A DNA stretch of 64,000 nucleotides. It comes from Tricholoma matsutake (taxonomy: Eukaryota > Basidiomycota > Agaricomycetes > Agaricales > Tricholomataceae). The stretch is from the NCBI GenBank assembly GCA_026075535.2, contig AP026548.1:8432001-8496000 (forward strand), in the 5' to 3' direction. The translations under genes were made by a program, and so were the position numbers. The notes beneath the pieces are model-generated. The model had not been told where the DNA came from, searched no databases, and saw only the letters and a program-made list of their open reading frames with translations. Below are positions 4,196 to 50,068 of this stretch, piece after piece; position 1 is the first letter of the stretch, and the number at the start of each line of letters is the position of its first letter.

Positions 4196-4242
4196 ATCTT
4201 TGAAGTCACTGACTTTGACTTCGAACTATTCTCCCCGCCCTC

Positions 4243-4968: not shown

Positions 4969-4999
4969 GTCGGGGTGTGGGTTCTTGGTTCTGGGGGTT

Positions 5000-9138: not shown

Positions 9139-9145
9139 TTAAAAA
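9139..9145 (-). other. Candidate -1 frameshift site between gag and pol (element 1)
   Basis: Gag ends GGT TTT TAA on the minus strand, with the TAA at 9139-9141. The protease frame is open across the same bases one step back (TTT TTA AAG). A Phe tRNA on TTT could slip back one base onto TTT. Element 2 also has pol in the -1 frame relative to gag. This is a structural inference. Confidence 0.4.
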
Positions 9146-10263: not shown

Positions 10264-10267
10264 AGAT

Positions 10268-10278
10268 CAGCTTGACCT
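10268..10278 (-). other. Self-priming primer-binding site of element 1
   Basis: Two bases inside the 5' LTR the minus strand reads AGGTCAAGCTG. Its exact complement, CAGCTTGACCT, is in the LTR transcript at 10614-10624 (and at 3789-3799). This 11-nt match is the arrangement known for Tf1 of fission yeast, where the mRNA 5' end folds back as primer. There is no tRNA-type TGG start here. Confidence 0.8.
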
Positions 10279-10280
10279 TT

Positions 10281-11082: not shown

Positions 11083-11087
11083 TCAGG

Positions 11088-14723: not shown

Positions 14724-14995
14724 ACTCGATCATCTTGATCTCTAACCACAATCAACATGTCAAATAAATGTCTCTCAGTCTTCAACCCTTTTTCTTTACA
14801 ATCAGGGCCGAAAGGTCCACTCCAAATGTGTACACAGCAGATCATTTGGTATGCAGAGTCCCGTTTCCATCAAGTCCTGTTGCACATGCAAGGGGCAAAT
14901 GTCTTAAAGCAAAAATGGATGCAAAAGGTTCTGTATTGTGAGCTTGTAAGCAGGATCTTTTATGAATCAAGTAAGAGATTCATCACTCAAAAATA

Positions 14996-23270: not shown

Positions 23271-23931
23271 TGTTAGGGCGACACCCACTATCTGCTAGCT
23301 AAGACCGTGTGGGTTCTCTCTACAAGAAGGGGGCTGGATCCACGTGTGTGATGGGGGGATTGATGGTTTTGATGCAAGGGGTTATTAATAGATGAGTTTG
23401 TTGACAAAGGCCTTTCACACCGAAAGCGTAGCACAAGGCCAGCCTCATAATTTCTCCTTTCTGAAATATAGTTAGAAATTCTTTGTGAAATATTATATTT
23501 GAGACTAAATTTCTACAAACAGAAATTCAAAAAATTACCCATTAGAAATACTGATTTTCATATTTCTAATGGGTAATTTTTTGAATTTCTGTTTGTAGAA
23601 ATTTAGTCTCAAATATAATATTTCACAAAGAATTTCTAACTATATTTCAGAAAGGAGAAATTATGAGGCTGGCCTTGTGTAGGTGGAATACCTAAGAGAA
23701 CACAACTGGGGTCCCCGAGGCATATTTGGGGTTTATATACTATGTTACATATATTGTACATTGTTGTTACCGATGCACTTGTACATGCGCATACATATTG
23801 ATGTGTGCGAAATAAAATTCTCACGCTATCAAAGTGTAGCATCATTTGGCGTCATTTGGCGTAATGTAGCGTAATTCGACATAATAAAATAAAAATAAAA
23901 ATTTATTAGGTAATGGGGTGGTTTCCTAACA
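23271..23931 (-). repeat. 3' LTR of element 2 (661 bp including a MITE)
   Basis: Without the 248-bp MITE and its 3-bp duplication it is 410 bp, against 412 bp for the 5' LTR. The 11-nt self-primer complement AGAACACAACT is intact at 23697-23707. Confidence 0.92.
23432..23679. mobile_element. 248-bp foldback MITE in the 3' LTR of element 2
   Basis: Two arms of about 119 bp are reverse complements around a ~10-nt centre (CTGATTTTCA), and I see no mismatch. Ends are CACAAGGCC and GGCCTTGTG. It is flanked by TAG on both sides (23429-23431, 23680-23682). A CAC...GTG end with a 3-bp duplication fits the CACTA or PIF/Harbinger groups. The 5' LTR lacks it, so it arrived after element 2 integrated. 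No coding capacity. Confidence 0.9.
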
Positions 23932-23944
23932 TTACCCCCCTTTT
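23932..23944 (-). other. Polypurine tract of element 2
   Basis: The minus strand reads AAAAGGGGGGTAA directly before the 3' LTR. Confidence 0.65.
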
Positions 23945-26900: not shown

Positions 26901-27634
26901 ATGGCTTCCACACTGGCATTCACTCAGACTCCTTCTTCTGGAACACTGACAGATATTCATGATACACCTTTGGTACCCACTCCTCCACTGGCTTCTCCAC
27001 CTTCATGATATTCTTGTCCCATGACTGTCCTCCACAAATTGCTCTAAAGGTTTGCTTCTGCTCTTCTTTCTCAATCATGATTGGAACTTCCCCATCTGGC
27101 ATTTCCTCATCCTCCACTTCCTCCATTGTAACAGAATACTTCCTCGGATGTTCTTTCTCTCTCTTTTTCCTTTTTTCCTTCTTCATCTTCCTCTCATACA
27201 CATTACATTCCTTAGGACAACGAGTCATTTGTACTTTCCCAGTTTTCCAATCAATTTCAGGATTATGCTTCTGTAACCACAGACATCCTATTATCAGATT
27301 GGTTTTCCCAAGATGGCACACTTCGAATATGGCTCGCTCCTGATGCTCCTGATACTTTAGTACCATAGTCACCTCCTCCTTGATAGTTCCTCCACGATTG
27401 ACTGTTCCATCAATATTGTACACCATTATAGGTTTTGCCAGCTTGCATGTGCTAATACCGTTTCCAGTAATTAAGGACCAATTAATGAATAATCCTGTAG
27501 CACCACTATCAAGCAACACTTCCACATCAATCACTGCATGTGTGTCCACTGTCTTCAGTCCCACAGTCAAGGTGATTTCAGGTTCTATTTGCACAGAGCA
27601 AATAAAGAATTTAGGGGTTTTCAGCTGAACTTTA
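23943..27634 (-). pseudogene. Pol of element 2: protease, RT, RNase H, integrase, chromodomain
   Basis: Protease motif LLDSGAT is near 27510. RT is open from 26769 with FIDN where YMDD is expected, so the second catalytic Asp is Asn. RNase H follows (VESDASDFATGAVL). Integrase HHCC is near 25280-25180, with DFITGLP and IISNRRPQF; the second catalytic Asp is Asn. The chromodomain is at about 24220-24070 (FLIKWKNYTNKNDLWEPE), followed by an FRPYQNF tail. Frame changes lie near 26090 and 24790, and TGA codons near 26920, 26770, 24750, 24510 and 24420 stand at Arg positions. The enzyme set would copy and integrate the element; this copy cannot. Confidence 0.9.
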
Positions 27635-27812
27635 CACTGCCCCACATAGTCCTGGAGGAATCCTGGTAGTCCTACCAGGACTCACCAGGACTCACCAGGA
27701 ATCCAGTGAGACTCAGTACCCTAAAGTCATACCATAATGGAAAGTCAATTTACAAGTTTCAGGTGCTTCGGACTTCATGAATTTCACAAAGTACCTACAA
27801 AATAAACTTGTT

Positions 27813-27897
27813 CAGAGGAGGGATTGAACTCTAGAACTCATGATCAAGAATCATATGACAAACCAAACAAGTGCTTAACCAGTTGAGCCACAGGAGA
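27813..27897 (-). repeat. tRNA-derived (SINE-like) module, left side of the 2.24-kb element
   Basis: On the minus strand an A box TGGCTCAACTGG (27890-27879) fits the pol III consensus fully. A B box-like AGTTCAATCC lies at 27830-27821, and TTTATTTTG follows. No tRNA cloverleaf closes. Confidence 0.55.
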
Positions 27898-28029
27898 ATT
27901 ATTAGCTGCAATATAAAAGTGTATTTATACCCTCAAACTCTAACTTAGGTATTTCTCTCTTGAAGCTCACAATTAAGATCAAATAAATCCAACGCGAGGG
28001 ATACACCATTAATTACATAAAAAAAAAAC

Positions 28030-28231
28030 CTCCCCCACACAAGGTGTGAGGGGGAGTCCTACAAATATATACATATAAAACTAATCTCCCCTCGTGTCGA
28101 ATGCGAGGGGAGCACTACAATTATAAAGAAAAAGAACGAAAAACCCCTCACCCATGTAAAACATGGGCGAGGGGGAAGGTATTACCATAAATGAAAAATG
28201 AAAAACTGCCCCATGCAAAATGCGGGGGCAG
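28030..28231. repeat. Array of four short GC-rich hairpins
   Basis: Palindromes at 28030-28056, 28086-28112, 28144-28175 and 28206-28231 each pair a C-rich arm with a G-rich arm over a short loop. For example, the second is CTCCCCTCG/CGAGGGGAG with a 9-nt loop. They are separated by A/T-rich linkers of about 30 bp. Arms differ in sequence but keep the pattern CCCC...GGGG, so the structure rather than the sequence looks kept. Confidence 0.65.
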
Positions 28232-28890
28232 CCTGGTGAGTTGTGCCTGTCGTCCTGTCCCCATCATCCTGGGTGCCGGGCCTTCATTGTCGCTGTCCTT
28301 GTCATTGCTGTCCTGGGTGTCATTTCCATGCTGCTCCTGGTTGTGCCCTTCCTGGGGGCATCATTTCTGTGCTGCTCCTGGTTGTGCCCTTCCTGGTTGT
28401 CGTTGCCATCCTGGCCATCTCCCGCTGTTGCATTCCTTGTTGCTGGTGTCCTGTTGTCGTTGTGTGGTTGTCTCCATCCTTGCACCCATTTGTTGTCATG
28501 GCTTTGCTGTTGCTGTCCTGGCGGTGTTGTGTTCCCTGGTGCTGGTGTCCTGTTGTCGTTGCGTGGTCGTCTCCTTCCTTCCACCCCTCCTTCCACCCTG
28601 CGAGCAGTTGCTCACAGCAGCAGTGCTGGGTCATGCTTGTCGTCCGTTGTCCTCCCTGTCCCATTGTTTTCGTGGTCGTCTGTTGTCCTCCCGTCCTTGT
28701 CTTGCCACCCCGCTGCTCTCATCATTTTGGGCCTTGCCACCCTGCTGCTCTCGTCATTTGCGGCTCCTCATCTCTGTCTCTGTGGTCCTCATTGTCGCTC
28801 CCCATTTCCACCCCGCAAGCAGCTGCTCACAGTGGTGGAGGGTGCAGTGGCGGTGGTGGGTCACATCATACAATGAGAAACTATAAAAAT
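28200..28890. other. Low-complexity block inside the 2.24-kb element
   Basis: G/C/T-rich repeats of TGTCGTTGT, TGCTCCTGGTTGTGCCC and GAGCAGTTGCTCAC. Long ORFs exist in all three plus frames and on minus because stop codons are rare in this composition; none has a domain. Confidence 0.55.
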
Positions 28891-29410
28891 TCAAAAGAAA
28901 ACTAATATTAATCAAAAAAGAATGAAACGAACAAAAAAAAAACTTACCTGGGGCCAGCCTTCCCTCTCTGCATCGTCGTTCTTTGTTTGTTGTTTGTTGT
29001 TTGTTGTTTGTTGTCTGTCATCTGTCATCTGTTGCTTGCTCGTTGTTCTTCATTTGTCATTTGGTGTCTTGTTGTCATGATATAGTTAGAACCTAAAGAG
29101 GGAAAGAAAATATTAGTTAGTTCAATAAAAAAAAAGTAAAAAACATTACCTGGGCCCCAAATGACATCTGTTGTTGTTTTGGCCTGAGGTGGTTCAAATG
29201 CAGCCATTGGCGGCATTAGACGAAGTGGTGGTGGCCATAGGAGCAGTGGCGACAGGTGTTGATGGAGGGGAGGTGGTGGAAGGGAGGTGGCATCATCGTC
29301 GAGAGTGGTGATGATGGTGGATGATGAGCTGGCAATGTTGATATGCGGCTGTGTGCTTTGTCATGCACAGCCACCCCAATGGTACCTAGAACAGTAAGTG
29401 GACATACCTC

Positions 29411-29495
29411 ATAAGTCTATCTGGTGTAGTGGTTATATTGGCTGTGTCAAAATGTTGTTGTCTCATGCCTAGGGTTCAATTCCAGCTCATGTCAT
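29411..29495 (+). repeat. tRNA-derived (SINE-like) module, right side of the 2.24-kb element
   Basis: A box-like TGGTGTAGTGG (29422-29432) and B box GGGTTCAATTCC (29472-29483), then TTTATTTTATTATTT. It is inverted relative to the module at 27813, so both point outward. Confidence 0.55.
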
Positions 29496-29519
29496 TTATT
29501 TTATTATTTAGTAGTAGTG

Positions 29520-29690
29520 AGGACTCCTGGATTCCTGGTGAGTCCTGGTGAGTCCTGGTGAGTCCTAGTGAGTCCTGGTGAGTCCTAGTGAGTCCTGGTG
29601 AGTCCTAGTGAGTCCTGGTGAGTCCTGATGAGTCATACAGAGTCCTGGTTACTCTTATAGAGTCCTACAGGATTCCTGGTCAGTCCCCCC
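29520..29690 (+). repeat. Decanucleotide satellite GTGAGTCCTG
   Basis: At least ten near-perfect tandem copies with period 10, then a degraded tail toward the right terminal inverted repeat. Inverted copies (CAGGACTCAC) are at 27675-27705. Confidence 0.85.
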
Positions 29691-29879
29691 AGATTCCTGA
29701 GAGTCCAAGTCCTGGGGAATTCCTGGAATAGTACCAGGAAGAGCCTGATTTACCAGGAATATACCAGGACTGAACCAGGAATCCCACTGGAGGGAAAACA
29801 GCCAGGAATGCAACATTTGGTGACCAATGGCTGTGGCAGGGATAACCAGGATTCCTCCAGGAATACATGGGGCAGTGTA

Positions 29880-30033
29880 AAGAGCTCGTTTTCGGAAAAA
29901 GTGCTCGGCAATTTTCTTGGTCACATGATTTGCAACAGTTGTACTCCTCGATTTCCTTTTCTGATTTACTCTGGGTTTCCTCGGATACTAATACATTGTA
30001 ACGATTCTGGGTCACCAATGGGGAAACCTTCAC
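29880..30033 (-). pseudogene. N-terminal end of the protease/pol frame of element 2
   Basis: Opens in the -1 frame relative to gag just past the gag stop, with a Cys-containing stretch (EEYNCCKSCDQENC). It is cut at 29880 by the 2.24-kb element and continues at 27634. Confidence 0.55.
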
Positions 30034-31951
30034 TGGGACTCTTCCACAATATTCTTCTGCTTGCCTTCCTCTGGCTTCACTTCCTCGATTGTAGCTTCCC
30101 TAATCTTTCTTTTCTGCCTACAATTCCTAGCGATGTGTCCTAACTGCCCACAGTTAAAACATTTAAGTGGGGCTCGTCTCCCCGCTTGATCAACCTCCAT
30201 TGCCTCTGCTGGTGCTGCTGACTCCATAACTATAGGTGTCACTGCCATGGCCAGTGGCTGTGCCCTCGGAGCTTGTGCCTGAGGCGCCTTTCCTTTCTCG
30301 GACTTTCCTCCCGATGGCTTTCCAAATCTACTACTTCTGTACATCAACTTTGACTCTGCCTGTTCCTGCCAATATTGCTGGTCAAGGTGCATTGCCCAAT
30401 TATACCACTCATCCAACTTCTCTGGCATAGAAGGTAGTTGGTAGATAGACTTGAATAAAGAGGGATTTAATCCTGCTTTCAAAAACTCTACCAATGCAGC
30501 TTCTCCCATATCTGTTTGCAAAGCTTCTGCTTTGAACTGCAAAATAAATTCATCTGCCATTAGGGAACCTTGGTGCATGGTCTTTAATTTAGCATTGGCT
30601 GTCGCCTTTGGATTAGGGTCTCCAAACTGTGCCTCCAATCTCTCCAGAAATTTCTTGAAGGTTGCAAATGGTTTATTTCCTGCAGCAATTTGATTAATAG
30701 CCTCGTTTCTCCAGAACTGTGCTTTCCCCCCCTGAATGTATGAGAGAGCAAACATAATCCTAGACTCGGCTAGTGTTTTAAGGTCTGGTTAAGTCCGGTT
30801 TTTTACGTCTAAATGGGGCAACCGGAACTGCAACCGGTCCAGGACTGATCCATATATTGATGGACCGCAACCGGACCGCATAGGACCGGTCCAAACCGGT
30901 TTTTTGTTGTAAAATTTGTTGTGCCAATACAACCTATCTGTTTCTCAATAACTATTACGCGGACGGTTTAATCGTTATGTAGACACCTGGACATTGTAAT
31001 TCCCCGGCAATTGGTTCAAATTTTAAGAGATTTCATTAAGATCTGACTGAGATATGACCAGAACAAAAGTACATTGTATTACATCTTGTAGTTTGTAGTT
31101 TGTAGTTTGTAGTTTGTCATGTGTATTTACAACTTGTCAGGGGTGTTAAATGAATAAAATGCACATGGTACAAACATTTATGTATGTTATTCCTTTGCCC
31201 TGGATAATGTCCAATTGTGCCCAATATTTTTGTAGCACAAGGTATAAGCAGTACAATCACAACTCCTCAAATCATGACAAAATACTCACATCAAAATGTA
31301 TTTGGTCATATCTCTCTCAGTTCTTAACCGTTTTCGATGATCCAGGGAGCGAAATTGATGGGATTATGTGTGGAAATGTGGGAGTATAGCTCACGTAACA
31401 TATGCACCAGTTGCAACTGGTTTAAACCGGTTTTCATCGGTTCAATGATATTCTTTAAAGTGAAAGACTGGCAACTGGACTGCAAAAGACCAGTCCTATA
31501 AATAGACACCTGGTTAACCGGACTTCGGTTCAGTTTGGTTCAGTTTCGGTTTTTTCCGGTTCATAGGACCGGACCTTTAAACACTAGACTCAGCTGTACA
31601 AAATTCTGGCTTCCTCCCATGGATGTACAATACTATGGAGCTGATGAAGGATTTTGTATCCTCCATGGTACCGTCAAAGATTTGCAGGGACATGTACTTA
31701 GGTAAGCATGCTTTTCCATTTCTGGATTTCTCCACCGTCTCATCCTCCTGTGACATCCACTCCACCATCTCCTCCATCTCATCATCTCTTTCTACTGTTG
31801 TCTCTGGCTGTAATTCTGCTTGTCTGGGCTGTGATGCTGCCAACACTGACACTAATTGCAACATTTGCGCTGCAAGCACATCAATTTTTGCCTCTAGTGC
31901 TGGTGTGGGAACAGGATTAGGGCCAGGCTTAGAAGTTGAGGTTTTGGACAT
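30030..31951 (-). pseudogene. Gag of element 2, split by a hAT-like element
   Basis: ATG at 31949-31951. The N-terminal part (31951-31587) is Pro/Glu-rich and ends in a gag start motif. The rest (30770-30030) has the Gypsy gag core (FLERLEAQFGDP, FLKAGLNPSLF) and a complete CCHC knuckle CFNCGQLGHIARNC, followed by a basic/acidic tail. It stops with TGA at 30030-30032. The hAT-like insert and its duplication interrupt it between Glu-Ser and Arg-Ile-Met. Confidence 0.85.
30771..31586. mobile_element. 816-bp hAT-like non-autonomous element in gag of element 2
   Basis: Terminal inverted repeats TAGTGTTTTAAGG and CCTTTAAACACTA (the right end in plus orientation). Eight-bp duplications GACTCGGC (30763-30770) and GACTCAGC (31587-31594) differ by one CpG-type change. 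An 8-bp duplication and TAGTGTT ends fit hAT. The interior is rich in ACCGG/CCGGT inverted motifs and a TTTGTAG microsatellite (31083-31117). No transposase. Confidence 0.8.
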
Positions 31952-32399
31952 AATGGTAAAATCTGTGATGAATCACTTCAACAAATTCAGGATTTGTTCT
32001 TCGAAACCTCTCCAAATGTTTATGGGTCACGTGATCATTCATCATTTGTCGGGCACCTATTTTGACACTTCGGATCAATAACCCTTCCAACAGTGCCTGA
32101 TCTCGGAGATAACACTGAATTTGGCTTGTAACCAAAATAGTCATCTGAATAGAGTGATTTAAATTGTAACTAAACCAGATCCAATCAGTTGTCTGGTTGC
32201 AGCTGTCCTAATGACGAGTGCTGCCTCTCGATCACTGGTGGTCGCAATGTAAGACGAGGCCTGGCGTCAGCTTCTGAAAGAAAAGGTAGATTATGTATAT
32301 ACAAGTACTTCTGGCTTGTGCCAAAAGGATGAGTAATTGGATGTGGTGCAGTGAAACAATGATGTATGCACAAGTAAGAGAAGGTGCACTGATATGGGA

Positions 32400-32410
32400 A
32401 GTTGTGTTCT
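32400..32410 (-). other. Self-priming primer-binding site of element 2
   Basis: Two bases inside the 5' LTR the minus strand reads AGAACACAACT. The same 11 bases occur on the plus strand of the 3' LTR (23697-23707), so the transcript 5' end AGTTGTGTTCT is complementary. In the 5' LTR (32588-32598) one base has changed (C to T). Confidence 0.75.
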
Positions 32411-32412
32411 TC

Positions 32413-32824
32413 TGTTAGGGCGACACCCACTATCTGCTAGCTAAGACCATGCAGGTTCTCTCTACAAGAAGGGGGCTGGATCCATGCACATGATGGGGGG
32501 ATTGATAGATTTGATGTGAGGGGTTATTAATAGATGAGTTTGTTGACAAAGGCCTTTCACACCAAAAGTGTAGGTGGAATACCTAAGAGAATACAACTGG
32601 GGTCCCCTAGGCATATATTTAGGGTTTATATACTATGTTACATATATTGTACATTGTTGTTACTGATGCACTTGCACATGCGCGTACATATTGATGCATG
32701 CGAAATAAAATTCTCATGCTATCAAAGTGTAGCATCATTTGGCGTCATTTGGCATAATGTAGCATAATTCGATATAATAAAATAAAAATGAAATTTTATT
32801 AGGTAATGGGGTGGTTTCCTAACA
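32413..32824 (-). repeat. 5' LTR of element 2 (412 bp)
   Basis: Matches the 3' LTR apart from the MITE and scattered C/T and G/A changes. TATATAA (minus strand, 32632-32626) lies 34 nt upstream of the predicted self-primer start at 32598. Confidence 0.92.
32588..32632 (-). promoter_or_regulatory. Core promoter and predicted mRNA start of element 2
   Basis: TATATAA followed at 34 nt by the PBS-complementary 11-mer (one mismatch in this copy). The 3' LTR copy has 32 nt spacing and a full match. Confidence 0.6.
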
Positions 32825-36390: not shown

Positions 36391-36530
36391 TGGAGTAGGG
36401 TGTGTGGGCAACTACTCCAGTAGTCACATGACCACATAGTTAGTAGACAGTCACACATGTACATAGTCACATCAGGCTATCACTAGAGCATCCCACCACT
36501 CTGCTATAGGAGACAGATCTGCTGTCTCCA
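36391..36530 (+). repeat. Left LTR of the short-LTR element (140 bp)
   Basis: Differs from the right copy by a few substitutions (for example ACAGATCTGCTGT versus ATGGATCTGCCAT, a compensated change inside the terminal palindrome). Confidence 0.85.
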
Positions 36531-36714
36531 TCTTGGTGATGAGAGCATGATTTGACGCATGCACTGCTGCTTTGTCTATTTTAGCTAGCTCTTGTCTCTT
36601 TTCTCACATGCCTCATTACAACGCTGTCTTTGTGTCTCGCTCTGCTTCTCAGTTTATTGTCTTGAATCTCTTGTTTCAGCACCCAGAACCTAGTCCACGG
36701 AACCACAGAACCAG

Positions 36715-36717
36715 TCA

Positions 36718-36762
<45 letters not shown>

Positions 36763-36765
36763 CCT
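36715..36765 (+). repeat. Hexanucleotide microsatellite (CCAGAA)n
   Basis: About eight CCAGAA units upstream of the ORF in the short-LTR element. Confidence 0.9.
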
Positions 36766-36788
36766 ACTACCAGTTTCTACCACCGAGC

Positions 36789-37416
36789 ATGCCAGGTCCA
36801 GGACAAGGCAAACGAGCTCAGAAGAAGAAATGGTGTGAAAACACGAGCCTAAATGCAAATATTGCCGCCGTAAATGCCATACTGATGGCATCGAGCACAG
36901 ATGCTCCAAAGGCGAGAACCACAGCATCAAAATTGTCATCACCTAATGACGAGGTCATTGCAACATCACTTGCAAGTGAAACGACAGCTAAAACCACTTC
37001 ATACATGGCTCTACAAGCTACTACAACAACCACTACAACTACCACAGCGGATGTGGCCCCAAATGACCCAAACGACGCCAATGATGCGACACATGTCGAC
37101 ACAGCCACAGCTGCATCACCAACAAACAAACCGTCTAACTACAGTCACGACGAAGTACAGCAATGCAAAACTCAAGGGATACCAGGAAGAGTTCAAAGAA
37201 GGACACAAAATTGGTAGGAAAACAGGGAAGGAAGAAGGAAAAGCGGACAGTTATGAGGAGGGATATGAGGAAGGAAGTAGGAAGTGGATGGAAGGCTACA
37301 GGGAAGGGTACAATGCAAAGGGGAAACTAGACCAAGAAAAGGCAGAACAAGCACATGGGAAGGGACTACTGGAAGGCCACAAACTAGGAATGCAGAATGG
37401 AAAGGACGAGGAATGA
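36789..37416 (+). CDS. Putative ORF of the short-LTR element with Gly-Tyr repeat
   Basis: ATG at 36789 opens a Thr/Ala-rich N-terminus (with a run of nine Thr). Near 37150 the open frame changes by one base and continues to TGA at 37414-37416 with a repeated pattern G-Y-x-E-(E/G)-x-x-x-G (GYEEGSRKWMEGYREGY). It is very charged and helical. It may be a Gag substitute or a captured gene fragment. The pattern resembles anonymous Gly-Tyr repeat proteins in basidiomycetes. Function unknown. Confidence 0.45.
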
Positions 37417-37419
37417 AAA

Positions 37420-38863
37420 AAGTGGCTCACAGAAGGACATGGTGCTGGGCTCTGCCTATCAATGGCAGCCCATGTGCGTGCACTCTTCCATGGCGCAGTT
37501 CTCCTGGAGGAGGCCAAAACCCAAACCAACCCTGAAACGACCACCTGGAGCGATGCTAGCACCCAGTCAGCCCTCAGTACCAATGAGACAGCTACCCAAA
37601 CAAAGAACAAACCTCACCCAGCTCCCATTGTACCCATAACGACCCCCCAGCCCTTTGTCATGCACCCTGAGCCACCCATTGCCACTGCCACGTCATTATC
37701 AACAATGGCAATGACACCTGAACCAAACAGCCAAAAACGACAACTTGGGTGATGACTAGCACCCAAACAGCTGTCCCCACCCCAGAGATGGCTAACCAGG
37801 CCATAAACAATGCACAGAGGCCATCTACAGCCCAGACAATGGAGCTACACCAGGACGAGGAGACACGTTTACCAGAACATGTCAATTACTTGATGGAATG
37901 ATCCTGCTCCCCCTGGAACTCAAAACAACAGTCCAGGAGCCTCCCAACACCATCCAGCTTGCCCCAGCTCAATCCACAGCCCCTCGTTCTGCACCCTGAG
38001 CCCACTGCTGCTGCTACGTCACCCCCAATGCTGCCTACACCTCACATAGCCACCAAGTCACCAACAATGTTGTCTACACCCGGGGACATCCCCCATTCAT
38101 TGTCTATGGCTCATTCACTGCCTACACCCCCCAGAAAGCCCCAGAAAGCCCAGAAACGAGCTGTTTCGCTGCATACCACTTCCTACACCCCTGCCATGTC
38201 ACCAATGACACTGTCGACGCCTGACGACACCCCCCATTCACCGTCTATGCCCCCATCTCTGTGTGTACACCCCAGCTCACCCCAGCTTGACCCTAAATGA
38301 GCCGTTTTGCCACCTCCAGTACATTTTGATTGGGCTGATGATGCTGCATCATTACCTACTGCCACCAGCACCCTGCCATGAGACCTCTCTGGTCTGAAAA
38401 TGAGCTGTCCACAACCGTTTGAGACCCTGTGATGACAGACTCAATGACGGTGAGCCCCACCTCGAGTCTTCCCGCCCTCGCGACAATTTGTTTATGCAGA
38501 TCCATCATTCTATGTTCACCCATCTCAAGTTCAATCTTTCATTACTCAATGTCATCCTTCTGGTATTGGGCCAGGGAAACCCATTGTTGTTACCCCCTTC
38601 AGAGCACCTACACCTGCACCTGTACCTCCAGTTCCAGTACTTGACTGGGATCAAGACCCCCAGCTAGCTGACCTAAGTCATGCACTATGGGCATTAGGAT
38701 GGACACCCCCATTTTGAGTCTTTCATTGTTATATTTTTTATATCATGCATAGAATTTTCTTGGTCACATTGTTTATATTATTCTTATACCTATTGTTCTG
38801 CTTTCAGCTTTTTTTCTGTTTTCTTTCTGTGGCAATGAGGACATCACCTTTTTTGGAGGCAGA
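37420..38863 (+). other. Pro/Thr-rich degenerate region of the short-LTR element
   Basis: Repeated CCTGAGCC, CACCCCAGC and TGTCACCAAT motifs. Short ORFs only. Related to 33270-33640 in reverse. Confidence 0.45.
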
Positions 38864-39003
38864 TGGAGTAGGGTGTGTGGGCACCTACTCCAGTAGTCAC
38901 ATGACCACATAGTTAGTAGACAGTCACACATGTACATAGTCACGTCAGGCTATCACTAGAGCATCCCACCACTCTGCTATAGGAGATGGATCTGCCATCT
39001 CCA
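38864..39003 (+). repeat. Right LTR of the short-LTR element (140 bp)
   Basis: See left copy; ends CCATCTCCA and is followed by the CCAT duplication. Confidence 0.85.
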
Positions 39004-39765
39004 CCATTTCTGCCAGTTGCTGCTCCATGGCATGGATGCAGGCAGCAGCCTCTCCCTGTGCCACCTGGGCTTCTCACAGTTGAACAAAATCTGCCTCAAA
39101 TTTTTTGCATCTTTCTTTCCATCCAGCAAGCACACCAGTGGTTTCATCGACTCACTTGCTGGCTTCCACTAATTAATGTTCCAAGGCTTCCATGCGAATG
39201 GTGGCATCCACCTTTGCCCCTCACAACACTTCTTCATGGGCTCCTTTTGCTTTATCCAGCTCATCTATAGCCTTCTCACTTCTACTCTTCCATTCTAACA
39301 CAGTGTCATTGGCTCATTCATTCGTTGCCATCAGTTCTTGAGTAACTTCTGATGGTTTGTTGCATTTCAAGGCCTTGATTGAGGCAGCAGACTTGCCTTG
39401 TGCAGCTTCCAGTGCCTCAGCATGGGCCACCTTAGCTTTATCGAGCTCTGCTGCAGCTTGCTGGGTCTTGACTTCATGTATGGAGAAGATATGGGCATTG
39501 TGATTAGCTTGTTTCTTCATCTCAGCTATTTTCTTCTCCAATGACTCAGTGCAGGCAACCTCTTCCTGTACCACCTTCTCCCACTCACTCTCAAGTCTTT
39601 GGCACTGTTCTTTCCACACAGTGATGCAAGAGCTTGTGATATCCAATTTACTTGTTACTCCCTGCAACTCCCTCTGTAGGCCAGCCAGAGATACAGCTAA
39701 TTCTTGTTGAATGCATTTGATTTCCTTGACATGAGCAGCTTGTAGTTGTAGTGCTCTTTGTGCGG
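39004..39765 (-). pseudogene. Coiled-coil gene, central part between two retroelements
   Basis: Open from 39765 to 39314, then continuing with several stops (mostly TGA at Arg-compatible positions) to 39004. Sequence is Ala/Glu/Lys/Gln-rich with heptads (EKKIAEMKKQANHN, ELDKAKVAHAEALEAAQG). The phrase ELDKAK...AHxE recurs, so there are internal repeats of the rod. Frame joins exactly to 49163 when element 3 and one GCGG copy are removed, and to 36386 when the short-LTR element is removed. Confidence 0.65.
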
Positions 39766-40948
39766 TGATGATACTCAACCCGGGAAAACCACCTAAACTG
39801 CCGATGAGGCAATCAATGATATTTGCAACAAGTCAGAGGAAGGTTGTGAGTCGTTCCGAATGTTTGTGGCCCAACCAATGGAAAGATGACCACTTGGTAC
39901 TGGTCATGAAGGTAGTGTTATGAGAGATGAAGGTGTTCGGCGTGGTCCAATCGAGTATCGATTGATATCGAGGGCAATCGATGAGATCGATGGCAAACGA
40001 GTTTATCGTTGATGGTCGATATGTGAATTCTGGGGACCTTTCGATAGGTCAATAGTATACAAAGGGTGTGGCAAATAGCTATGAAGTGTTGGAAGGGTTG
40101 CTAGAGCTAATGACAAGAGGATCGAGGGAGGATCAAGGATGCAACAATTGCAGAGGTTTCTCGTTGATTGAGAAAACCCATAGAGACTTAGATCGTTTTA
40201 GAAAGTTGATCGGATGCTTAGAACTGTATACAAGATGATATGTGAAGACAATTTCTTGTATTTCCAAGTAGATACTACAGAGTTTTATATGTTTTTAAAG
40301 AAACTTCCTAAAATGGAATAAGAAACATGTGTAGAACATGAGGCAAAAGATATGAGTTAAGGCACAAGGTAAAAAGGAGACTGGAATCCAAACAAGAAAG
40401 ATATATATCATATGATGAAAGAGTAATATAGTGTATGGAACTGAAAGGGGACTGTCCTTTGTGTAGAAATCATGCTAAGTCTCACAGTAATTTGTCCAGT
40501 GGGTTCTGTGCGCAATTGGGACTTGGAACGAGGCTAACCTACTATCAGCAGGTTTGGGCACGAGTCGGAATCCTTCCTGGCGCATGGTACTCCACCATAT
40601 AGATAGCAAATGCGGCGCCCGATGTCGCTCGTAGTGTCTCGATATCGATTGATGATGCTCAACGATGGTCGATGATGCTCGATCGCGGTCACGGCTGTTC
40701 AAAGTTGATCAGGGATGTTTGATGGTCGTGTCGAGGGATCTTAAGGGCTTTCAGGGTAGTCCTAAGGTTGTGCGATGTGGGCTCTTGATACGATCAATGT
40801 TGCTGGTGATGTTTTGACGCGGTCTATATGATATCGCGATCAATAGACTGGGTTGCACTGCATCTGGGATGTCGTAGGAGTTAGCCGATGTGGTTAGAAT
40901 GATGCTAAAGTGGTGAATCGGTCCTTGAGCCAAGGAGACGACCTATCA
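39766..40948 (-). repeat. 3' LTR of element 3 (1183 bp)
   Basis: Family ends as in element A. Differs from the 5' LTR mainly by C/T and G/A transitions, for example in the TCGATCGCGG region near 40680 versus TTGATTGTGG near 48895. Confidence 0.92.
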
Positions 40949-40966
40949 TCCTCCCCCTTACTGAAA
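40949..40966 (-). other. 3' polypurine tract of element 3
   Basis: The minus strand reads TTTCAGTAAGGGGGAGGA, directly against the 3' LTR. An identical 18-nt copy is at 43282-43299. Confidence 0.75.
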
Positions 40967-41095
40967 CTCTGACCGTCCCAGTCAGTTGAGCCAAATAACT
41001 GGGTCATGTGACATTGTTGATCGTTGATTTAAGACGCATCGTGGTTTGAACTTTTCTCTTTCCATTCGATCTCTTCCATCCACCTCCTCGAGAAC

Positions 41096-42425
41096 ATGTC
41101 CATCCTCACCGAACTTGCCCTTCCCATCCTTGAACATGTGAAATTGATGCCCGAGGCTGGCAAAGCCAAAGAGTTGGACTTCGAAGTATGGGGTCAATGT
41201 TTTTGTGAGAAAATGGTATGTCTTTTTGTTTTCTTTGTTTATCTGCTTCCTAATCTCGTTTGATAGGCTGAATACAACAACCTGATCGGGTCATTCGACG
41301 AGGCACGCAATGTTGGATGAGGCCATTGGGCTGTTCGCGCCATTTGCTCGTGAGGGCTGGCTGTCTTGGGGGGGCAAGTATCTGTTTGAGGAGTATTCGA
41401 GGACAATCGAGGAAGAGAGGAAGAGAGAGGAGGAGAGGGAGGCTCGGCAGGCGGCCATCAAGGCCAAAGTCCAGAGGATCAAGGAACGACAAGACGTGCT
41501 GGTCGAGGCACGTCGATCATTCTTGGCCAAAGTCCAGGCCAAAATGGTTTCAAAGGACAACTTCCGCGATTGTACAGCTGCGCTTGAGCTGATGCGCCTC
41601 TCAATCGATTGGGACGAGGCCGCGGACGAAGCAGTGCCTCTGGTCAATGACCCACCAGTCATCGAACAGATCGTTGAGAAGAGAAAGGCCGATGAGTTGG
41701 ACGAGGAGGAGGAGGGTGAGGACGAGCTCAATGAGGAACCCATGGTCACAAAGCGGGTACGGCTAGAGGAAGGTGACTTGATCACCTTCCATGGGCCGGT
41801 AAGTGGTCATTCTACGTTGATATCATCAAGACTAATTACGCTTTCGATGTTGCTTTAGTGTGATCGTTGCACCGGGCTGAAAACGGCTCCGGAATGCGTC
41901 GTCGAGGAGGGCACCCCAAAGTGCAAGAAATGCACTCAGGGGCTGCAGGGGTGCTACTGGGAGGGAGTATCTAGGCGAGGATTCCATCGAGGCAAATTGA
42001 GGAAAATGGCAGGCTCTCAATGAGCTACAAAGGGTACTGAGGAGTCGACGGAGGTGTCGACTCCCAGACATAGTAAGTGATCTTTTTTGATGACAAGTAC
42101 GATTGCTAATCTGTATGATTCCTTAGCCATATGCATTTGGGCTATCCAGCCCATCCAAAACGTGGAGGCCGGGCCCTCAAAAGTTGACGAGTGCCCAAAA
42201 CGAACAGTGAAGGCAAAGCCGAAGATGGCTGAGAAGGAGAAGGGGAAGGGGAAGGGGAAAGGGAAAGGGAAAGCGCGAGAAGTCGAACCTGAGGTTGCGA
42301 GTATGGTCGAGGGGTTCTGTAGTGCGATAGCGCATTGGGCAATGAGATCGGTGGAGGAGAGTATTGAATTGGGTGGCGGTTGTAGGTATGTCACTTCTGA
42401 GATGTTGAGAGGGATGAGTGGATGA
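41096..42425 (+). pseudogene. Antisense four-exon gene in element 3: Zn2Cys6-like protein
   Basis: Exons 41096-41215, 41267-41798, 41859-42072 and 42127-42425. Introns of 51, 60 and 54 bp have GTATGT/GTAAGT donors, TAG acceptors and CTAAT-type branch sites. Phases agree (0, 0, 1). Exon 1 starts MSILTELALPILEHVK. Exon 2 is a long Glu/Arg-rich helix. Exon 3 opens with C-x2-C-x8-C-x8-C-x2-C-x6-C (CDRC, KCKKC), like a Gal4-type binuclear cluster. Exon 4 has a Lys-Gly run and ends at TGA 42423-42425, its last ~36 codons opposite integrase codons. Damage: a one-base shift near 41308 and a TGA near 42021. A DNA-binding or regulatory role is inference. Confidence 0.75.
42230..42275 (+). repeat. (AAGGGG/AAAGGG)n microsatellite in antisense exon 4
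   Basis: Codes a Lys-Gly alternation on the plus strand and a Phe-Pro run on minus. Confidence 0.85.
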
Positions 42426-42426
42426 G

Positions 42427-43150
42427 AACCTGTCATCGCAAAATAGGGCGAACAGCCCATTCATTTTTGAACTGTTACCCATTCTGCCCAAAAGACCAAG
42501 TAGGTCCCAACTGACCATCGAGTTTGATCACCATCGATGGCCTTGTAGAGTGATTGTCGTACATCGAAGTGGGCTCATTTGACGAGACCATTGGCATGAG
42601 AATTGTACCCACTTATCCAAATGTGATTGATATGATATCGCTTCGACAAATACTCGAGAGCAGAAAGAAATGCTGTGCCGTTGTCAGTAACGATCTCATA
42701 AAGCGAGCCCCAATGACAAATGATTTCTTCGAAGATCCAATCGCCAATGGTCTTCACTGTTTCATTGCGAAGCATCCTGAAATCCGGCCAGTACGATATC
42801 GAACATCGACCTTGTACTATATAGCGATATCCACCAGAAGGCGGCATGTGCATTGTGTCGATGTAGACTTTTCCAAATAGAGGAGCGGGTGTGGCAACGA
42901 TTGGTGGAATAAGAAGATTTCAAGTTTGCCGCAACTGACAGTAGTGGCATGTTTGGATGTACCATGCGATATCGGCTTTCAGGTTGGGCCACCAGAATCG
43001 TAGTGCAATGTGAGACTTCATGGCAAAGATCATTTTGTGGCTGATATGGTCATGCGACGACCAGATAATATTGATGCGACGCTCTGGAATCGCGATGATC
43101 TTTTCGCCATAGTTTGCTGGAATCTATGAAGAACTCGGTGCAATATCACA
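42427..43150 (-). pseudogene. Integrase of element 3
   Basis: Zinc-binding HHCC (HDHISH ... TCHYC) near 43050-42920; core motifs VYIDTMHMP, IVTDNGTAF and SGYNSHANGLVK. The expected catalytic Glu after GLV is Lys, from GTCGAA to GTCAAA, a CpG change, and the next codon is TGA at an Arg position. After PLIPLNISEVTYLQPPP the frame runs into the antisense gene region and stops at 42017, so the usual C-terminal segment is missing or replaced. Confidence 0.8.
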
Positions 43151-43658: not shown

Positions 43659-44940
43659 TCAATATAGACCATAAAGTTCGAGTTTCAGTTGCGAAAACCA
43701 CGATTCATGGTCATTGAGTGTGATCAAGCCGAATCGACTATAGTATCGCTTTCGAGGGTTATCGTGGTCACATTGCGTTAGGAAATAGCCAATGGCAATG
43801 CTCGATGTGTCGACTGTGAGGATTACTGGGGCATTCAAGATATAGTGGATGGCTCGAATCGCTGGCAAGTTTAGGAGCGCATGCTTGAGATCTTCTTGCG
43901 CTGCTACCTGAGATGGGCTGAATTTGAAGGGCACATCTTTTTGAGTAAGATTCATTAGCGCAGCTGCTTGATGTGCAAAACTCTGGATGAAAATTCGACA
44001 AACTCCAATTGTTCCTAAGAATGCCTTAACTTCTGTGAGCATACGACACAGACCCCATTTCTGGATCTTATTGATACGTGTCGGGTCAGCCATTTGGCCT
44101 TGAATATTGCATCGATGACCTAAAATGATTATCTCGGGGACACAAGCAAATAATTTCGGTCCAGAGAACATCCCACCACAATACTTCATGTGCTGGATGA
44201 TGCAATTTAGGTTCTCGAAAAGCTCCCATATGAATTGTCAAATGCCTGAGTTGTCGACGATTGTTTCATAAGACCCACTGATCATTCGATATTCCGATTT
44301 CGGACCCTTCACCAGTGTGTCGTCAATATAAGGGATCGTGATGTGAGGGACCTCGGGTTGTAGGATGAAAGTTACATTGTTGTGTAGGATCGGAACCGAG
44401 TTTGTCCAACCCATTGGTAGGGTGACGATTCGAAGTGCGCCAAATGGGATCTGGAAAGTCATTAGATCTTGAGAGGATTCAGATATGAGCCTTTTGTCAA
44501 ATGCAACATATAAATGCAACATTCCACCACAAGCGCATCCTCCAAACTGTTCGGCTAAATGCTCGGGGATCGGGACGATGCCTGAGTGCTGAATCATAAC
44601 TTGGTTTAGCAGCTCGAGGCTGTGGACTATTTGGAGCGATTTTGCATCTTTCTTTGCAACGCAAAACCATTGTGATCGGTATGATGAGTTTGACGACTTG
44701 TAGACTCCTGCTTTGATCTTCTTTTTTCAGCATCTTGCAAATCTGTTCATACAAACTGGGTGGTATGGGGATATTGCATTCAACCCAAGGGGTATGAGGG
44801 ATGACTGGGAACTCGATAGGGGGGAAGAAATTGGGTCGAAACCTTCCTCGTTCATTTTCGGTCCATGCGAACCCTGCTTGCTGGTTTCGAATGAAGTCAT
44901 GCATGAGGTCTCATTCTTGAGGCCATAAGAAATTGCCTGG
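43659..44940 (-). pseudogene. Reverse transcriptase and RNase H of element 3
   Basis: Starts with FAWTENERGRFR and the motif VIPHTPWVECNIPIPP. RT palm motifs follow: LPMGWTNSVPILHNNVTF, then PYIDDTLVKGP with the active site YIDD kept. RNase H is marked by VILTVDTSSIAIGYFL. The frame is broken at about 44640, 44500 and 44220. Related elements of this basidiomycete lineage have the same motif order. Confidence 0.8.
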
Positions 44941-45446: not shown

Positions 45447-45860
45447 TCAAGGTATCGAGGGAATTGTAGCAGTCCGAGTTGAGTTAGGATCACATATTGT
45501 GATGGTTTGGGCTTCGTTCTGATAGTTTCTAATGACGCTTTCCGTTAAGATGTCGAAAGGTCGTCCGAGTAGAATATTGTAAGCCAGGTCCCAAATAATA
45601 TGTATCTGCATGTATAGGGTGATTCCACCGAGATCGCAGGGCACATTGCATGCTAAGCCAAGTGTTTCGTCCACAGTCCCATTGGCAGACTGCATCAGAA
45701 GCCTAATCGAGGAGTCATATGCTAGACCGAGTTCGTGGCAAACATCTTCGGCCATCGATATGATCGAGGAACTGGGATTGACGATGCTTTCTACCTGGTT
45801 GTTACCATGGACATCCATAATAACTGATCTAATTGATGAAGTTTCTTTAGCGACGATGAA
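45447..45860 (-). pseudogene. Aspartic protease of element 3
   Basis: The flap and second-half motif AYNILLGRPFD is clear. The active-site segment reads SIVNPSSSIISM, with Asn where Asp is expected (GTCGAT to GTCAAT, a CpG change). The enzyme would cut the polyprotein; this copy should be inactive. Confidence 0.7.
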
Positions 45861-45869
45861 AGGCTGAGG

Positions 45870-47985
45870 GATTTCACCAGGTCAGAGACTGCTAATATAG
45901 GTCTCGTATGGGTCAGGCACAATGATTGCGTCAGGACTAAACATGTTCATCGCATTGTTTCCAGATTGTGGGACTTGTTTCGGTGTGACCTGTTCTCTCC
46001 ATTTTGTTCGAACCTCTGGTGAAAGCAAGAGTAGTTCTTTGGATGTCAGCGTGACGATTGGCATCTTCATTGAGCGCGCAAAAATATTGTGCACGATTTT
46101 CTCGTTCTGAACCGGTGCCTGTGTCGCATACGATGGTCCGTCTTTTTCCTTACCCTTTGATGCGCCAGCAAAGTTCCTTTCATGTGGTGGCAAATAGGCA
46201 TTCTCCCTAACCGATGCATATGGGTGTACCGAGGTTTGCGTTGGGGGTATGGTGGTCGATGGCAAAGTGGTCGATGAAGGAGACATTGATGTTGATGTTG
46301 AAGCTGTAGTCGAAGGGTTGACCATTGTTGATGAAGATGTCGAGGGTGGTGGGACTGGAGCAGTAGATGTTGACGATGCAGGGATGGGGGTTGTTGTGGC
46401 TGGAACCGAATTTCAAACTTCTTTGTTTGGATGCAAAAATGGTCGACCACTTCGAAGTGCAAATATTTCGCACTCGAGAGCCGCTATTCTATCTTCAGAG
46501 TCAGCTGTCAACGTTGAGTTATGATAAATGCCTTTTGTCTCCGATCCCAATGTAGAAACGGCATCGGATTCTGTTATCAAAGTGATCGCAGCCGAGGTTG
46601 AACTAGTCAAAGTCGAAGGTGCTGATGGTGCGATGCTGAATAAAAGTGTGGCTGCTGGGGTTGCATCTGGGTTGCGTTTCCACCATTCATCGATGTGTTC
46701 CTTAATAAACCTGCCGAGGATACTTTGAGGGGTGAATTGTCAATCTGGAAGTACGATCTTTCCTTCCGTGTTGAGCTTACACTTCCCTTCATTCAAGTAT
46801 GACTGACAAACCATACAGTCAGGAATAAAATGTCCCGATAAACTGCAAAATATGCAAAGGAGTGCATCGATGTGTGCCTGTCTGTCTGCCGAATTAGTGC
46901 GAGGATTTTTAGTACCTGCGATATGCATAGCGATGGTGCTAGTGAATCGTTCAAACATCACGTTTAGATCTTTGGTTTTAATCATAATCGTTCCAGGTGA
47001 CAAGGTGACCGTATTTCCGACGTTTGATGTCAAGTGTGATGAGGAAGTTGATTGGTGGATTACTGAGTTCGATGTGTTGGAGCCTGCTAGTACAAATTTT
47101 GCCACATCGTGAATGTCATTGAGTGGATATGGATCGTCGGGATAATGGTCGGGGAATTTGAGTTCGAGTCATCGAGCAATTTGAGTCCATACGCCAGGTT
47201 GGAATCCTCTAACATAAGCTCTGCTTGGCTTGGCTTCTGAGATCCTATTCTTTGCTCGCAAAAAGTGAGTAATGTTGTAGAACACGCAATAATACATTCC
47301 TAGATCGCTCACGTCGAATATCCCAATGCGTAGCTGTTCTCCCACTAATTTGTCCATGTCCAATATGCTCCACTTGCGATCGTCTTCTGAGCCAGGATAG
47401 AGTTTGTGTACTGCTGTTCTAAATTCGTTGAATGATGTGCCGGGTTGATACTCTGGAAGCGATTCCCAGAGTTTGGAAGAGTCAATGTCGAGGTAGTGAC
47501 AAGCGTGTTTCTTCATTAGATTTGATTCAGTAACGCCGCAGGTTGGGAATAATAGTTCAAGCTCTTCGAAGTATTGTCAAAGCTCTTGAGGCTGAGTAGG
47601 GTTGAACTTCGGAGCAGTCAAGTGCCCACAAGCTGGCATCGCAGTTTGGGTAGTCATGAATGCGATGATTCTAGGGGTAGGGGTTAAGACTTGGGTGATG
47701 GATGGTAGGGGTGTCGAAGTTATTGGAAGGATGAACGAAGAGGTCGATGATGATGATGAAGAAGTAGATGACAATGTGGAAGGTGATGATACAGGTGAAG
47801 GAAATATTCTACGATGAGTAGATTCTGCTTCGGAAACTGGAATTAGAATGTCTCCCGATTGTTCGAGAGTTTCGAAGGCATGGCGAGTATCAATACGAAG
47901 GGTTCTCGCTTGTGTTGGCCTAAGCCAAGGAAGTCAAGGTTGGTCCGACGATGAAATGATTCAGATACCCTCGCGGTGGGCTCCA
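45870..47985 (-). pseudogene. Gag region of element 3
   Basis: Pieces 47774-47577 (Ser/Thr/Pro-rich), 47516-47169 (gag core with DMDKLVGEQLRIGIFD), 47105-46740 (CCHC knuckle CIFCSLSGHFIPDC), 46610-46413 and 46325-45882 (Ser/Thr-rich linker with HPYASVRENAYLPPHERNF). The order and the long linker before protease match other members of this lineage. Interrupted by several stops. Confidence 0.75.
47968..47985 (-). other. Primer-binding site of element 3 (tRNA type)
   Basis: TGGAGCCCACCGCGAGGG on the minus strand, four bases inside the 5' LTR; same as element A except one CpG change. Confidence 0.6.
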
Positions 47986-47989
47986 AAAA

Positions 47990-49162
47990 TGATGATACTC
48001 AACCCGGGAAAACCACCTAAACTGCCGATGAGGCAATCGATGATATTTGCGACAAGTCAGAGGAAGGTTGCGAGTCGTTCCGAATGTTCATGGCCCAACC
48101 AATGGAAAGATGACCAGTTGGTACTGGTCATGAAGGTAGTGTTATGAGAGAGGAAGGTGTTCGGCATGGTCCGATCGAGTATCAATCAATATCGAGGGCA
48201 ATCAACGAGATCAACAGTGAACAAGTTTATCATCAATGGTCGATATGTGAATTCTGGGGACCTTTCGATAGGTTGATAGTATACGAAGGGTGCGGCAAAT
48301 GGCTATGAAGTGTTGGAAGGGTTGCTAGAGCTAATGACAAGAGGATCAAGGGAGGATCAAGGACGCGACAATCACAGAGGTTTCTCGTTGATTGAGAAAA
48401 CCCATAGAGACTTAGATCGTTTTAGAAAGTTGATCGGATGCTTAGAACTGTATACAAGATGATATGTGAAGACAATTTCTTGTATTTCCAAGTAGATACT
48501 ACAGAGTTTTATATGTTTTTAAAGAAACTTCCTAAAATGGAATAAGAAACATGTGTAGAACATGAGGCAAAAGATATGAGTTAAGGCACAAGGTAAAAAG
48601 GAGACTGGAATCCAAACAAGAAAGATATATATCATATGATTAAAGAGTAATATAGTGTATGGAACTGAAAGGGGACTGTCCTTTGTGTAGAAATTGCACT
48701 AAGTCTCGCAGTAATTTGTCCAGCAGGTTCTGTGTGTGATTGGGACTTGGAACAAGGCTAACCTACTATCAGCAGGTTTGGGCACGAGTTGGAATCCTTC
48801 CTGGCACATGGTACTCCACCATATAGATAACAAATGCGGCGCCTGATGTCGCTCGTAGTGTCTCGATATTGATCGATGATGCTCGATGATGCTTGATTGT
48901 GGTTGCAGCTGTTCAAAGTTAAACAGGGATGTTCGATGGTCATGTCGAGGGATCTTAAGGGCTTTCGGGGTAGTCTTAAGGTTGTGCGATGTGGGCTCTT
49001 GATATGATCAATGTTGCTGGTGATGTTTCGATGCAGTCAATATGATATTGCAATCAATAGACTGGGTCGCACTGCGTCTGGGACATCGTAGGAGTTAGCC
49101 AATGTGGTTAGAACGATGCTAAAGTGGTGAATTGGTCCTTGAGCCGAGGAGATGACCTATCA
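47990..49162 (-). repeat. 5' LTR of element 3 (1173 bp)
   Basis: Family ends; followed by the GCGG duplication and the coiled-coil host gene. Confidence 0.92.
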
Positions 49163-50068
49163 GCGGCATCTTCCTCAAACTTCTGATCTTCTTGCTTGAG
49201 GTGCTCAACAGTGGTTTTGAGTTGCTGTGCTAGAGTGATCAATTCTGCAGCTGACTGCTGGGCTGCAGATGACTTGTCAAACAAAAGATCAGCTTTGAGC
49301 CATATCAGGACACACAAGACAAACCAACTCCGTAAGATCTAAATTTTGTTTTTGAAGAGATTCATTTTTGAGAGCAGCCTTGCTAAAAAAAATGCAGGCT
49401 TCGGAAAGCTGAATCCTCAATGATTTTAACTAGAGTGCTATTAATAAGATGCAGTGATGAATAACAGAATCACACACCTTGCCATTTGCTTTCTCAAGAT
49501 CACTGGACTCCACAATTCTGACCTTTGTCTTCACTTTATACATCTAGTAAATTTCAATGAGAATCCAGGCTCTAGTAAGGCAGGTTGGGCTCACTGGGGC
49601 TTCCTCGTATTCTTCAAGTGATTGCACTCTGGAAGGTGGGTCCAGTTGTGGCTTACGGCCACACTTGCCCTGCCTATGAGCCCCACTGTGCTGCGCCACA
49701 TGTGGAGAGTTATCAGGGTTATTGCCAAGGGAAGGAATCACGGTGGGCTCAGCACCAGGGGCTGGTGTTGGAGTAGGCTGTAAGTTTCCTGCCCTGCCCC
49801 CACTGCCTACAGAGGCTGCTAGGGAAGGCATTGAAGGCATGGGTGCATCTGTCAGATGAATGGCAGGCATAGGACTACCAAAAGCTTGCAAGGTGTTTAT
49901 GTCTGTGATGGAATCTGTGCTTGAGCTGGGGGTAAATTGTGGGACCAAACAATTGTCACCCATTGCCACATCAAAGCTAATATTGGTGTGCTTGAGTGAG
50001 CATAACATTCACTGAGAAGTCAATACAAATACTGGTGTGATAGGTTCCATCTCCACATCAGCAGCCAT
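49163..50068 (-). pseudogene. Coiled-coil gene, N-terminal exons
   Basis: Candidate ATG at 50066-50068 (MAADVEMEPITPVF), a TGA at an Arg-compatible site 19 codons on, then a Ser/Pro/Thr-rich region with a Gly-Lys-Cys-Gly-Arg-Lys patch near 49660. Exon 1 ends near 49478 at GTGTGTGAT. An acceptor TTTTTTTTAG near 49390 leads to coiled-coil sequence (KAALKNESLQKQNLDL), a small frame change near 49325, then LLFDKSSAAQQSAAEL to the element 3 insertion. The protein looks like a rod with a disordered head. Function unknown. Confidence 0.55.

Follow-up and report, generated by a model that had tools for sequence, protein, structure and literature searches.

An antisense accessory gene, broken in this copy, that accompanies nearly every scored member of a Gypsy-type retrotransposon family of Tricholoma matsutake and is likely to encode a cysteine-cluster coiled-coil regulator of the element

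The window, meaning the whole 64,000-nucleotide stretch that was analysed (C11:8432001-8496000), contains a Ty3/Gypsy-type retrotransposon of ~9.4 kb that reads on the minus strand. Its 1.18-kb long terminal repeats (LTRs), the 3' LTR at 39766..40948 and the 5' LTR at 47990..49162 (both minus strand), pair with 92.5% identity over 1183 columns, and the target-site repeat GCGG is found at the LTR ends on the left (39762..39765) and on the right (49163..49166). A polypurine-tract-like stretch, C/T-rich on the plus strand and kept in 27 aligned copies, adjoins the 3' LTR at 40949..40962 (minus strand), and the primer-binding-site-like TGGAGCCCACCGCGAGGG follows the 5' LTR at 47968..47985 (minus strand). 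The LTR pair, the 4-bp target-site repeat and the primer-binding-site-like and polypurine-tract-like stretches all occupy the places expected of an LTR retrotransposon. The protease region (45447..45818; Pfam gag-asp_proteas, E 0.0021, below the cut-off), the RNase H region (43659..44189; Pfam RT_RNaseH_2, E 3e-7) and an integrase remnant (42315..42925, including an ORF at 42575-42853 that is integrase by sequence and alone is without a Pfam match) lie on the minus strand, and the pol order protease, RT/RNase H, integrase fits that strand. The copy is decayed, only RNase H standing above the Pfam cut-off and integrase and RT being recognized by their sequence only. Over 1173 sites the LTRs are separated by 5 transversions and 74 transitions, 44 of which fall on CG sites of one or the other copy, so most of the LTR change is of the CG-loss type; loss of CG sites has been reported in the T. 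matsutake genome (PMC6980582).

Two more LTR pairs surround minus-strand gag-pol ORFs at 3456-11083 and 23270-32824 and represent other Gypsy-like elements. An inverted repeat at 23432-23679, with 119-nt arms that are 100% complementary and 10 nt apart, adjoins an LTR copy. Long ORFs on the plus strand at 11191-16648 probably belong to a KDZ-type transposon; one is proline-rich, and another has a cysteine pattern reminiscent of the KDZ CxC domains. Repetitive ORFs are flanked by a 140-base direct repeat (96%) at 36391-36530 and 38864-39003, 2.5 kb apart, and the region 36391-39003 may be a small element bounded by short terminal repeats.

Between the integrase remnant and the 3' LTR of the ~9.4-kb element, on the plus strand and therefore opposite to gag-pol, lies an antisense gene (41096-42314). 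It is preceded by a leader at 40963..41095 (plus strand), between the polypurine tract and the gene start, in which GGTCATGTGACATTGTTG, a TATA-like GATTTAAGA and a C/T-rich tract are conserved among 27 copies, and which we predict to comprise the promoter and 5' UTR. Exon 1 (41096..41215, 120 nt) begins with the ATG at 41096 and is followed by predicted intron 1 (41216..41266, 51 nt), exon 2 (41267..41798, 532 nt; 549 nt in most relatives), predicted intron 2 (41799..41858, 60 nt), exon 3 (41859..42072, 214 nt), predicted intron 3 (42073..42126, 54 nt) and the remaining part of exon 4 (42127..42314), all on the plus strand. All three introns are of the GT-AG type and the junction phases are 0, 0 and 1, in agreement with a sequence-only reading of this DNA, which had also noticed a six-cysteine cluster; all six cysteines are present in exon 3. 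That reading had proposed a four-exon antisense gene between integrase and 3' LTR, of which the place, the strand and four exon-like pieces hold, but the frame of the window copy is broken. The breaks are a 17-nt deletion in exon 2, which shifts the frame, an in-frame TGA in exon 3, and a deletion of ~0.9 kb that cuts exon 4 at 42314.

The junction of the large deletion lies at 42314..42315. In 23 of 27 relatives 828-913 extra bases are present at this point, and the four exceptions are a copy with no match past the gene (L006), one with a deletion of its own (L013), one with an insertion (L019) and one with a smaller deletion (L025). With the ~0.9 kb went the final part of exon 4, the integrase C-terminus and, between them, a spacer of ~0.3 kb. 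L009, a relative, shows the two genes converging without overlap, its gene stop lying ~0.3 kb before the integrase stop. Because the deletion joined them, antisense integrase sequence at 42315-42425 had been taken for the final stretch of the last exon; the supposed overlap of exon 4 with the integrase C-terminus is an artefact of this scar and was rejected.

Next, we examined the gene model across relatives. All copy counts refer to the one T. matsutake genome that was scanned (161,040,721 bases in 13 contigs). A DNA search with window positions 41000-42500 gave 812 candidates, of which the best 40, the window copy and 39 other places matching its gene DNA at 80-90% identity, were used as the copy set. 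Alignment of these 40 copies yielded a consensus gene with exons of 120, 549, 214 and ~338 nt and, in nearly all copies, introns of 50-52, 60 and 54-55 nt. GT-AG borders were present at 116 of 120 introns, a branch-point motif CTRAY lay 15-27 nt before the acceptor in 110 of 120, and each of the six cysteines was conserved in 38-40 of the 40 copies. In 10 more diverged copies, picked from 25 fetched because they span the gene, 29 of 30 introns were GT-AG and 58 of 60 cysteines were kept. By sequence, three of the 40 copies (L020, L027 and L035) are intact, with no stop, frameshift or splice-site change; L010 and L014 have an open frame with one donor lost in each, and the remaining 35, the window copy included, are broken in frame or truncated. 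The 17-nt deletion of exon 2 (window 41306 region) also occurs in L007, L008, L032 and L036, giving five of the 40 copies, not all of them closest relatives; it is either a recurrent deletion at a short repeat or one spread by recombination.

At least one breaking change is thus present in 37 of the 40 copies (the window copy and 36 of 39 relatives), which counts against the explanation that we propose below and would suit a gene that one element took from the host and that is decaying without a role in the element. Many of the in-frame stops are TGA, which would also suit such decay in a genome for which loss of CG sites is reported (PMC6980582). The sequence-only reading had suggested looking for the same antisense gene in full-length relatives of the element, and the distribution that we found makes a decaying captured gene highly improbable. 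Exon 2 matched at least 150 places (the best 150 of 666 candidates) and exon 3 at least 150 places (the best 150 of 575). Allowing up to 3 mismatches, a 28-base pattern across the exon 2/intron 2 boundary occurred at 206 places and its reversed control at 0, and the element family as a whole occupies more than 200 places in the genome. Working in reverse from the integrase, we took the best 150 of 577 candidate C-termini. For 125 of them a listed gene match lay on the opposite strand, as far off as expected. In the 1.6 kb alongside each of the other 25, antisense gene pieces were present in 23, some of just 58 residues; one further C-terminus had exon 3 at 2.9 kb, and one, L058, had no gene within the 1.6 kb fetched. 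The gene or a piece of it therefore accompanies 149 of these best 150 integrase C-termini. All 148 gene/integrase pairs (148/148) are antisense, and no same-strand pair was found within 2.6 kb. With protein identity in the listed family dropping to 63%, and with shared changes under selection as described next, these data argue for an old gene retained through the spread of the element; on the 149 of 150 count, we rejected a one-off capture from the host. A further copy of the antisense gene, with exon 2 and exon 3 matches, lies ~5.8 kb to the left of the window (G000:C11:8425698-8426519) and probably belongs to an element cut by the left window edge, the LTR of which is at window 1274-2457.

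Selection on the reading frame was assessed from changes common to at least three of the 40 copies. Shared transversions in the gene frame gave 47/432 synonymous and 66/1853 nonsynonymous changes (N/S 0.33, p 9e-9), against 1.30, 1.68, 2.32, 0.79 and 1.49 in the other five frames, so the gene has been selected as a protein. The purifying selection that the sequence-only reading had asked about is thus seen. In the same 18 copies N/S was 0.25 for the gene and 0.10 for pol (the pol mirror frame also gave 0.10, with 13 stop columns), so constraint on the gene is weaker than that on pol. Besides this weaker constraint and the lack of a gene match at L058, two observations count against the proposed explanation: shared transitions gave 0.55 in the gene frame and a similarly low 0.57 in its mirror frame (minus frame 1), and codons 321-360 show a nonsynonymous excess (N 10/194, S 1/46). 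Singleton changes were nearer neutral (transversions 0.51, transitions 0.88), as expected when copies decay after insertion. Chance open frames joined by chance splice sites would find a point in their favour only in the broken frame of the window copy; the N/S of 0.33 against 0.79-2.32 elsewhere, the GT-AG borders at 116 of 120 introns and the absence of shared transversion stops from exons 1-2 and 4 speak against them. We consider this explanation hardly credible, and it was rejected on the N/S ratios and splice-site conservation.

The sequence-only reading had also held that introns antisense to an element survive retrotransposition, and the genome bears this out. In a genome-wide search with up to 3 mismatches, each of the spliced junctions 1/2, 2/3 and 3/4 was found at 0 places, compared with the 206 places of the unspliced exon 2/intron 2 boundary. 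Absence of intron-less copies means that no cycle has removed the introns, which would follow if the element RNA is complementary to the gene and reverse transcription passes over the antisense messenger. Intron-less copies would also have given evidence of splicing; as none was found at the three junctions, splicing of the three introns in the antisense messenger remains a prediction from their sequence.

We then compared diversity along the element. In 300-base steps, transversion diversity was 0.027-0.031 over the gene versus 0.0018-0.0167 elsewhere from the 3' LTR to pol, and 0.0015-0.0162 in six profile windows on the gag side; the profile leaves out ~45.4-45.9 kb and the 5' LTR. Choosing the copies by likeness to the window gene, if anything, lowers the diversity of the gene. 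Among the 17 copies with both pol and gene, transversions per 4-fold site were 0.073 in the gene and 0.024 in pol, and transversion diversity was 0.057 in the gene introns, 0.014 in the LTR, 0.0073 in the leader and 0.0038 in the noncoding spacer. High values at 4-fold sites and in introns indicate that the peak is not a matter of constraint.

The gene also carries signs of recombination. Inside it, the fraction of site pairs showing every one of the four combinations climbs from 0.37 to 0.78 with distance, a correlation that exceeded 2000 of 2000 permutations (counted without the truncated L006, L036 and L040). Distances between copies in the LTR and in the integrase end, on opposite sides of the gene, correlate at 0.67. 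Those in exons 3-4 correlate weakly with these flanks (0.21 with the integrase end, 0.27 with the LTR), with a difference against the pooled right flank of 0.40 (16 copies; bootstrap interval 0.06-0.76), and exons 1-2 follow the flanks with a correlation of 0.66 (16 copies). An illustration is given by three groups of 4 copies (group 1), 6 copies (group 2) and 2 copies (L019 and L024), which were chosen after clustering of exons 3-4 and are no independent test; L009, L014, L017 and L025 were left out. Over the first part of the gene, group 2 is 0.009 transversions per site from group 1 and 0.048 from L019/L024; over the last part, which begins where exon 2 ends and runs to the stop, it is 0.007 from L019/L024 and 0.046 from group 1. 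LTR and spacer are similar across all three (0.006-0.015), and in pol L019/L024 are slightly more distant, at 0.014-0.015 versus 0.007 between groups 1 and 2. The mosaic of group 2 implies that a block encoding both the cysteine cluster and leucine-rich tail of the product moved between elements. The gene halves assort independently on similar element backgrounds, and the route of exchange could be template switching between co-packaged RNAs or gene conversion.

Because the peak takes in introns and 4-fold sites and coincides with the antisense gene, the transcript and not the protein might be what matters: convergent RNAs would form double-stranded RNA and small RNAs, and diversity would be escape from homology-dependent silencing. 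Genes of the quelling and meiotic-silencing types are reported in T. matsutake (PMC6980582). Frame-specific purifying selection and the conserved splice sites and cysteines show that the protein has mattered, though the RNA may matter too, and we regard an explanation by the transcript as unlikely.

The product of the intact copy L027 has 406 residues. By eye its conserved N-terminal part looks helical and its C-terminal tail is leucine-rich and heptad-like; charged repeats, an acidic stretch and basic stretches are further features, and its cysteine cluster is spaced CX2CX8CX8CX2CX6C. A Pfam search with the product returned DUF7096 only, at E 0.01 and below the cut-off; the cysteine part alone gave no Pfam match, and no DNA-binding domain was called. 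Searches for homologues were negative in a protein collection whose fungal share is uncertain (none of 7991 candidates reached E 0.1, and in a second search none of 17 reached E 1), in IMG/VR viral contigs with exon 2 as query, and in PDB sequences with exon 3 as query (best E 0.84), which ties the protein to no known function. These negative searches, and the missing Pfam call for the cysteine cluster, weigh against the regulator proposed next.

Collectively, these observations suggest that the antisense accessory gene of the window is a broken copy of one present in nearly every scored member of the family, and that this gene probably encodes a cysteine-cluster coiled-coil regulator of the element. 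From the features of the product and the antisense proteins of plant and retroviral elements, the regulator may be a nuclear, nucleic-acid-binding one. Transcription of an antisense RNA would start from a promoter in the conserved leader next to the 3' LTR; the three introns would then be spliced out, and the protein would enter the nucleus, bind element nucleic acid and set element activity. The genomic RNA would contain only the complement of the gene, leaving the introns unspliced and kept in each new copy.

An accessory replication factor that aids the integration complex, for example in nuclear import or in RNA or integrase binding, would use the same protein differently. The integrase neighbourhood, the basic stretches and the predicted coiled coil would fit such a factor, a similar role has been suggested for plant antisense ORFs (PMC7264820), and the present data do not separate it from a regulator of transcription. 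On the other side, it would be strange for an element to make a particle component from a separate antisense transcript, and the protein matches no known factor; we take a replication factor to be possible but not probable.

More tentatively, the regulator could bear on the diversity peak. We put forward, as a speculation that we ourselves think rather unlikely, that the antisense gene is the specificity locus of the element: a self-encoded regulator whose alleles are swapped as cassettes among elements that are alike in other respects, a copy with a new allele escaping repression aimed at the old one. The repression would come, on the same speculative footing, from sister elements or from the host. 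Such a locus would resemble the immunity regions swapped by temperate phages and, if real, would account for gene halves that, unlike the LTR and pol, are old, diverse and shuffled, in a protein frame still under purifying selection.

Antisense accessory genes of LTR elements are without known function, and the matsutake family offers, in one finished genome, more than 200 copies, dated by divergence and traceable per allele. It is a natural test of how intron-bearing genes pass through an RNA stage and of whether fungal LTR elements encode regulators that evolve by cassette exchange, and the diversity peak yields predictions for RNA and small-RNA data of one cultured mushroom.

Comparison with known systems places the gene as follows. 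Zn2Cys6 proteins (PF00172) have the spacing CX2CX6CX5-12CX2CX6-8C. With them the matsutake product shares six conserved cysteines in two CxxC-anchored groups, but its spacing is x2-x8-x8-x2-x6, it has no Zn_clus (PF00172) Pfam match, and none of the 21 PF00172 places in the genome coincides, by eye, with the listed gene copies. The Zn2Cys6-like label given by the sequence-only reading was therefore dropped, and membership in that class was rejected. HBZ of HTLV-1 is a spliced gene of the bZIP type, and its likeness to the matsutake gene is one of place and proposed function, the type of element being different. Among retroviral antisense genes, HBZ adjoins the 3' LTR and is a nuclear regulator (PMC11963269, PMC7264820).

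Closer counterparts are the antisense ORFs of plant Ty3/Gypsy elements, including Grande gene23, RIRE2, Silene Retand with its TRP28 proteins and PvRetro13, for which the function is unknown and a nuclear or DNA-binding role is suspected (PMC7264820, PMC11963269). Like these ORFs as described there, the matsutake gene is antisense to gag-pol, lies between pol and the 3' LTR, occurs in most family copies and is conserved, with purifying selection that is clear but weaker than on pol; it fits the class of antisense additional ORFs called aORF-3R in place (pol to 3' LTR), strand and presence in most copies. Unlike them, as far as they are known by description, it has three predicted introns, a six-cysteine cluster and a basidiomycete host. 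The Retand TRP28 domain PF04195 was not among the Pfam matches of the L027 product up to E 10, and in a term count over the text of the review-type papers PMC7264820 and PMC11963269 the word intron had 0 occurrences.

For fungi, the sequence-only reading knew of no described case with a zinc-cluster product. One antisense gene of a fungal LTR element is in fact reported: brtn of Boty in Botrytis cinerea, listed between pol and the 3' LTR (PMC7264820, PMC8365987), which by its description shares strand and place with the matsutake gene and differs in having an ascomycete host. A fungal antisense LTR gene with introns or a zinc-cluster-like cysteine cluster was not found in the literature searched, which is weak evidence of absence as subscription papers lay outside the search; by a term search, antisense, zinc and additional ORF are not used in a survey of fungal LTR elements (PMC3248453). 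From T. matsutake itself, marY1 is a Gypsy-type element of 6047 bp with 426-bp LTRs (PMC10211490); the window element shares its species and type and differs in size, with ~9.4 kb and 1.18-kb LTRs. Antisense accessory genes are already known from plant elements and from Boty, and what is new here is the combination of a basidiomycete host, three predicted introns, a cysteine cluster and a recombining diversity peak.
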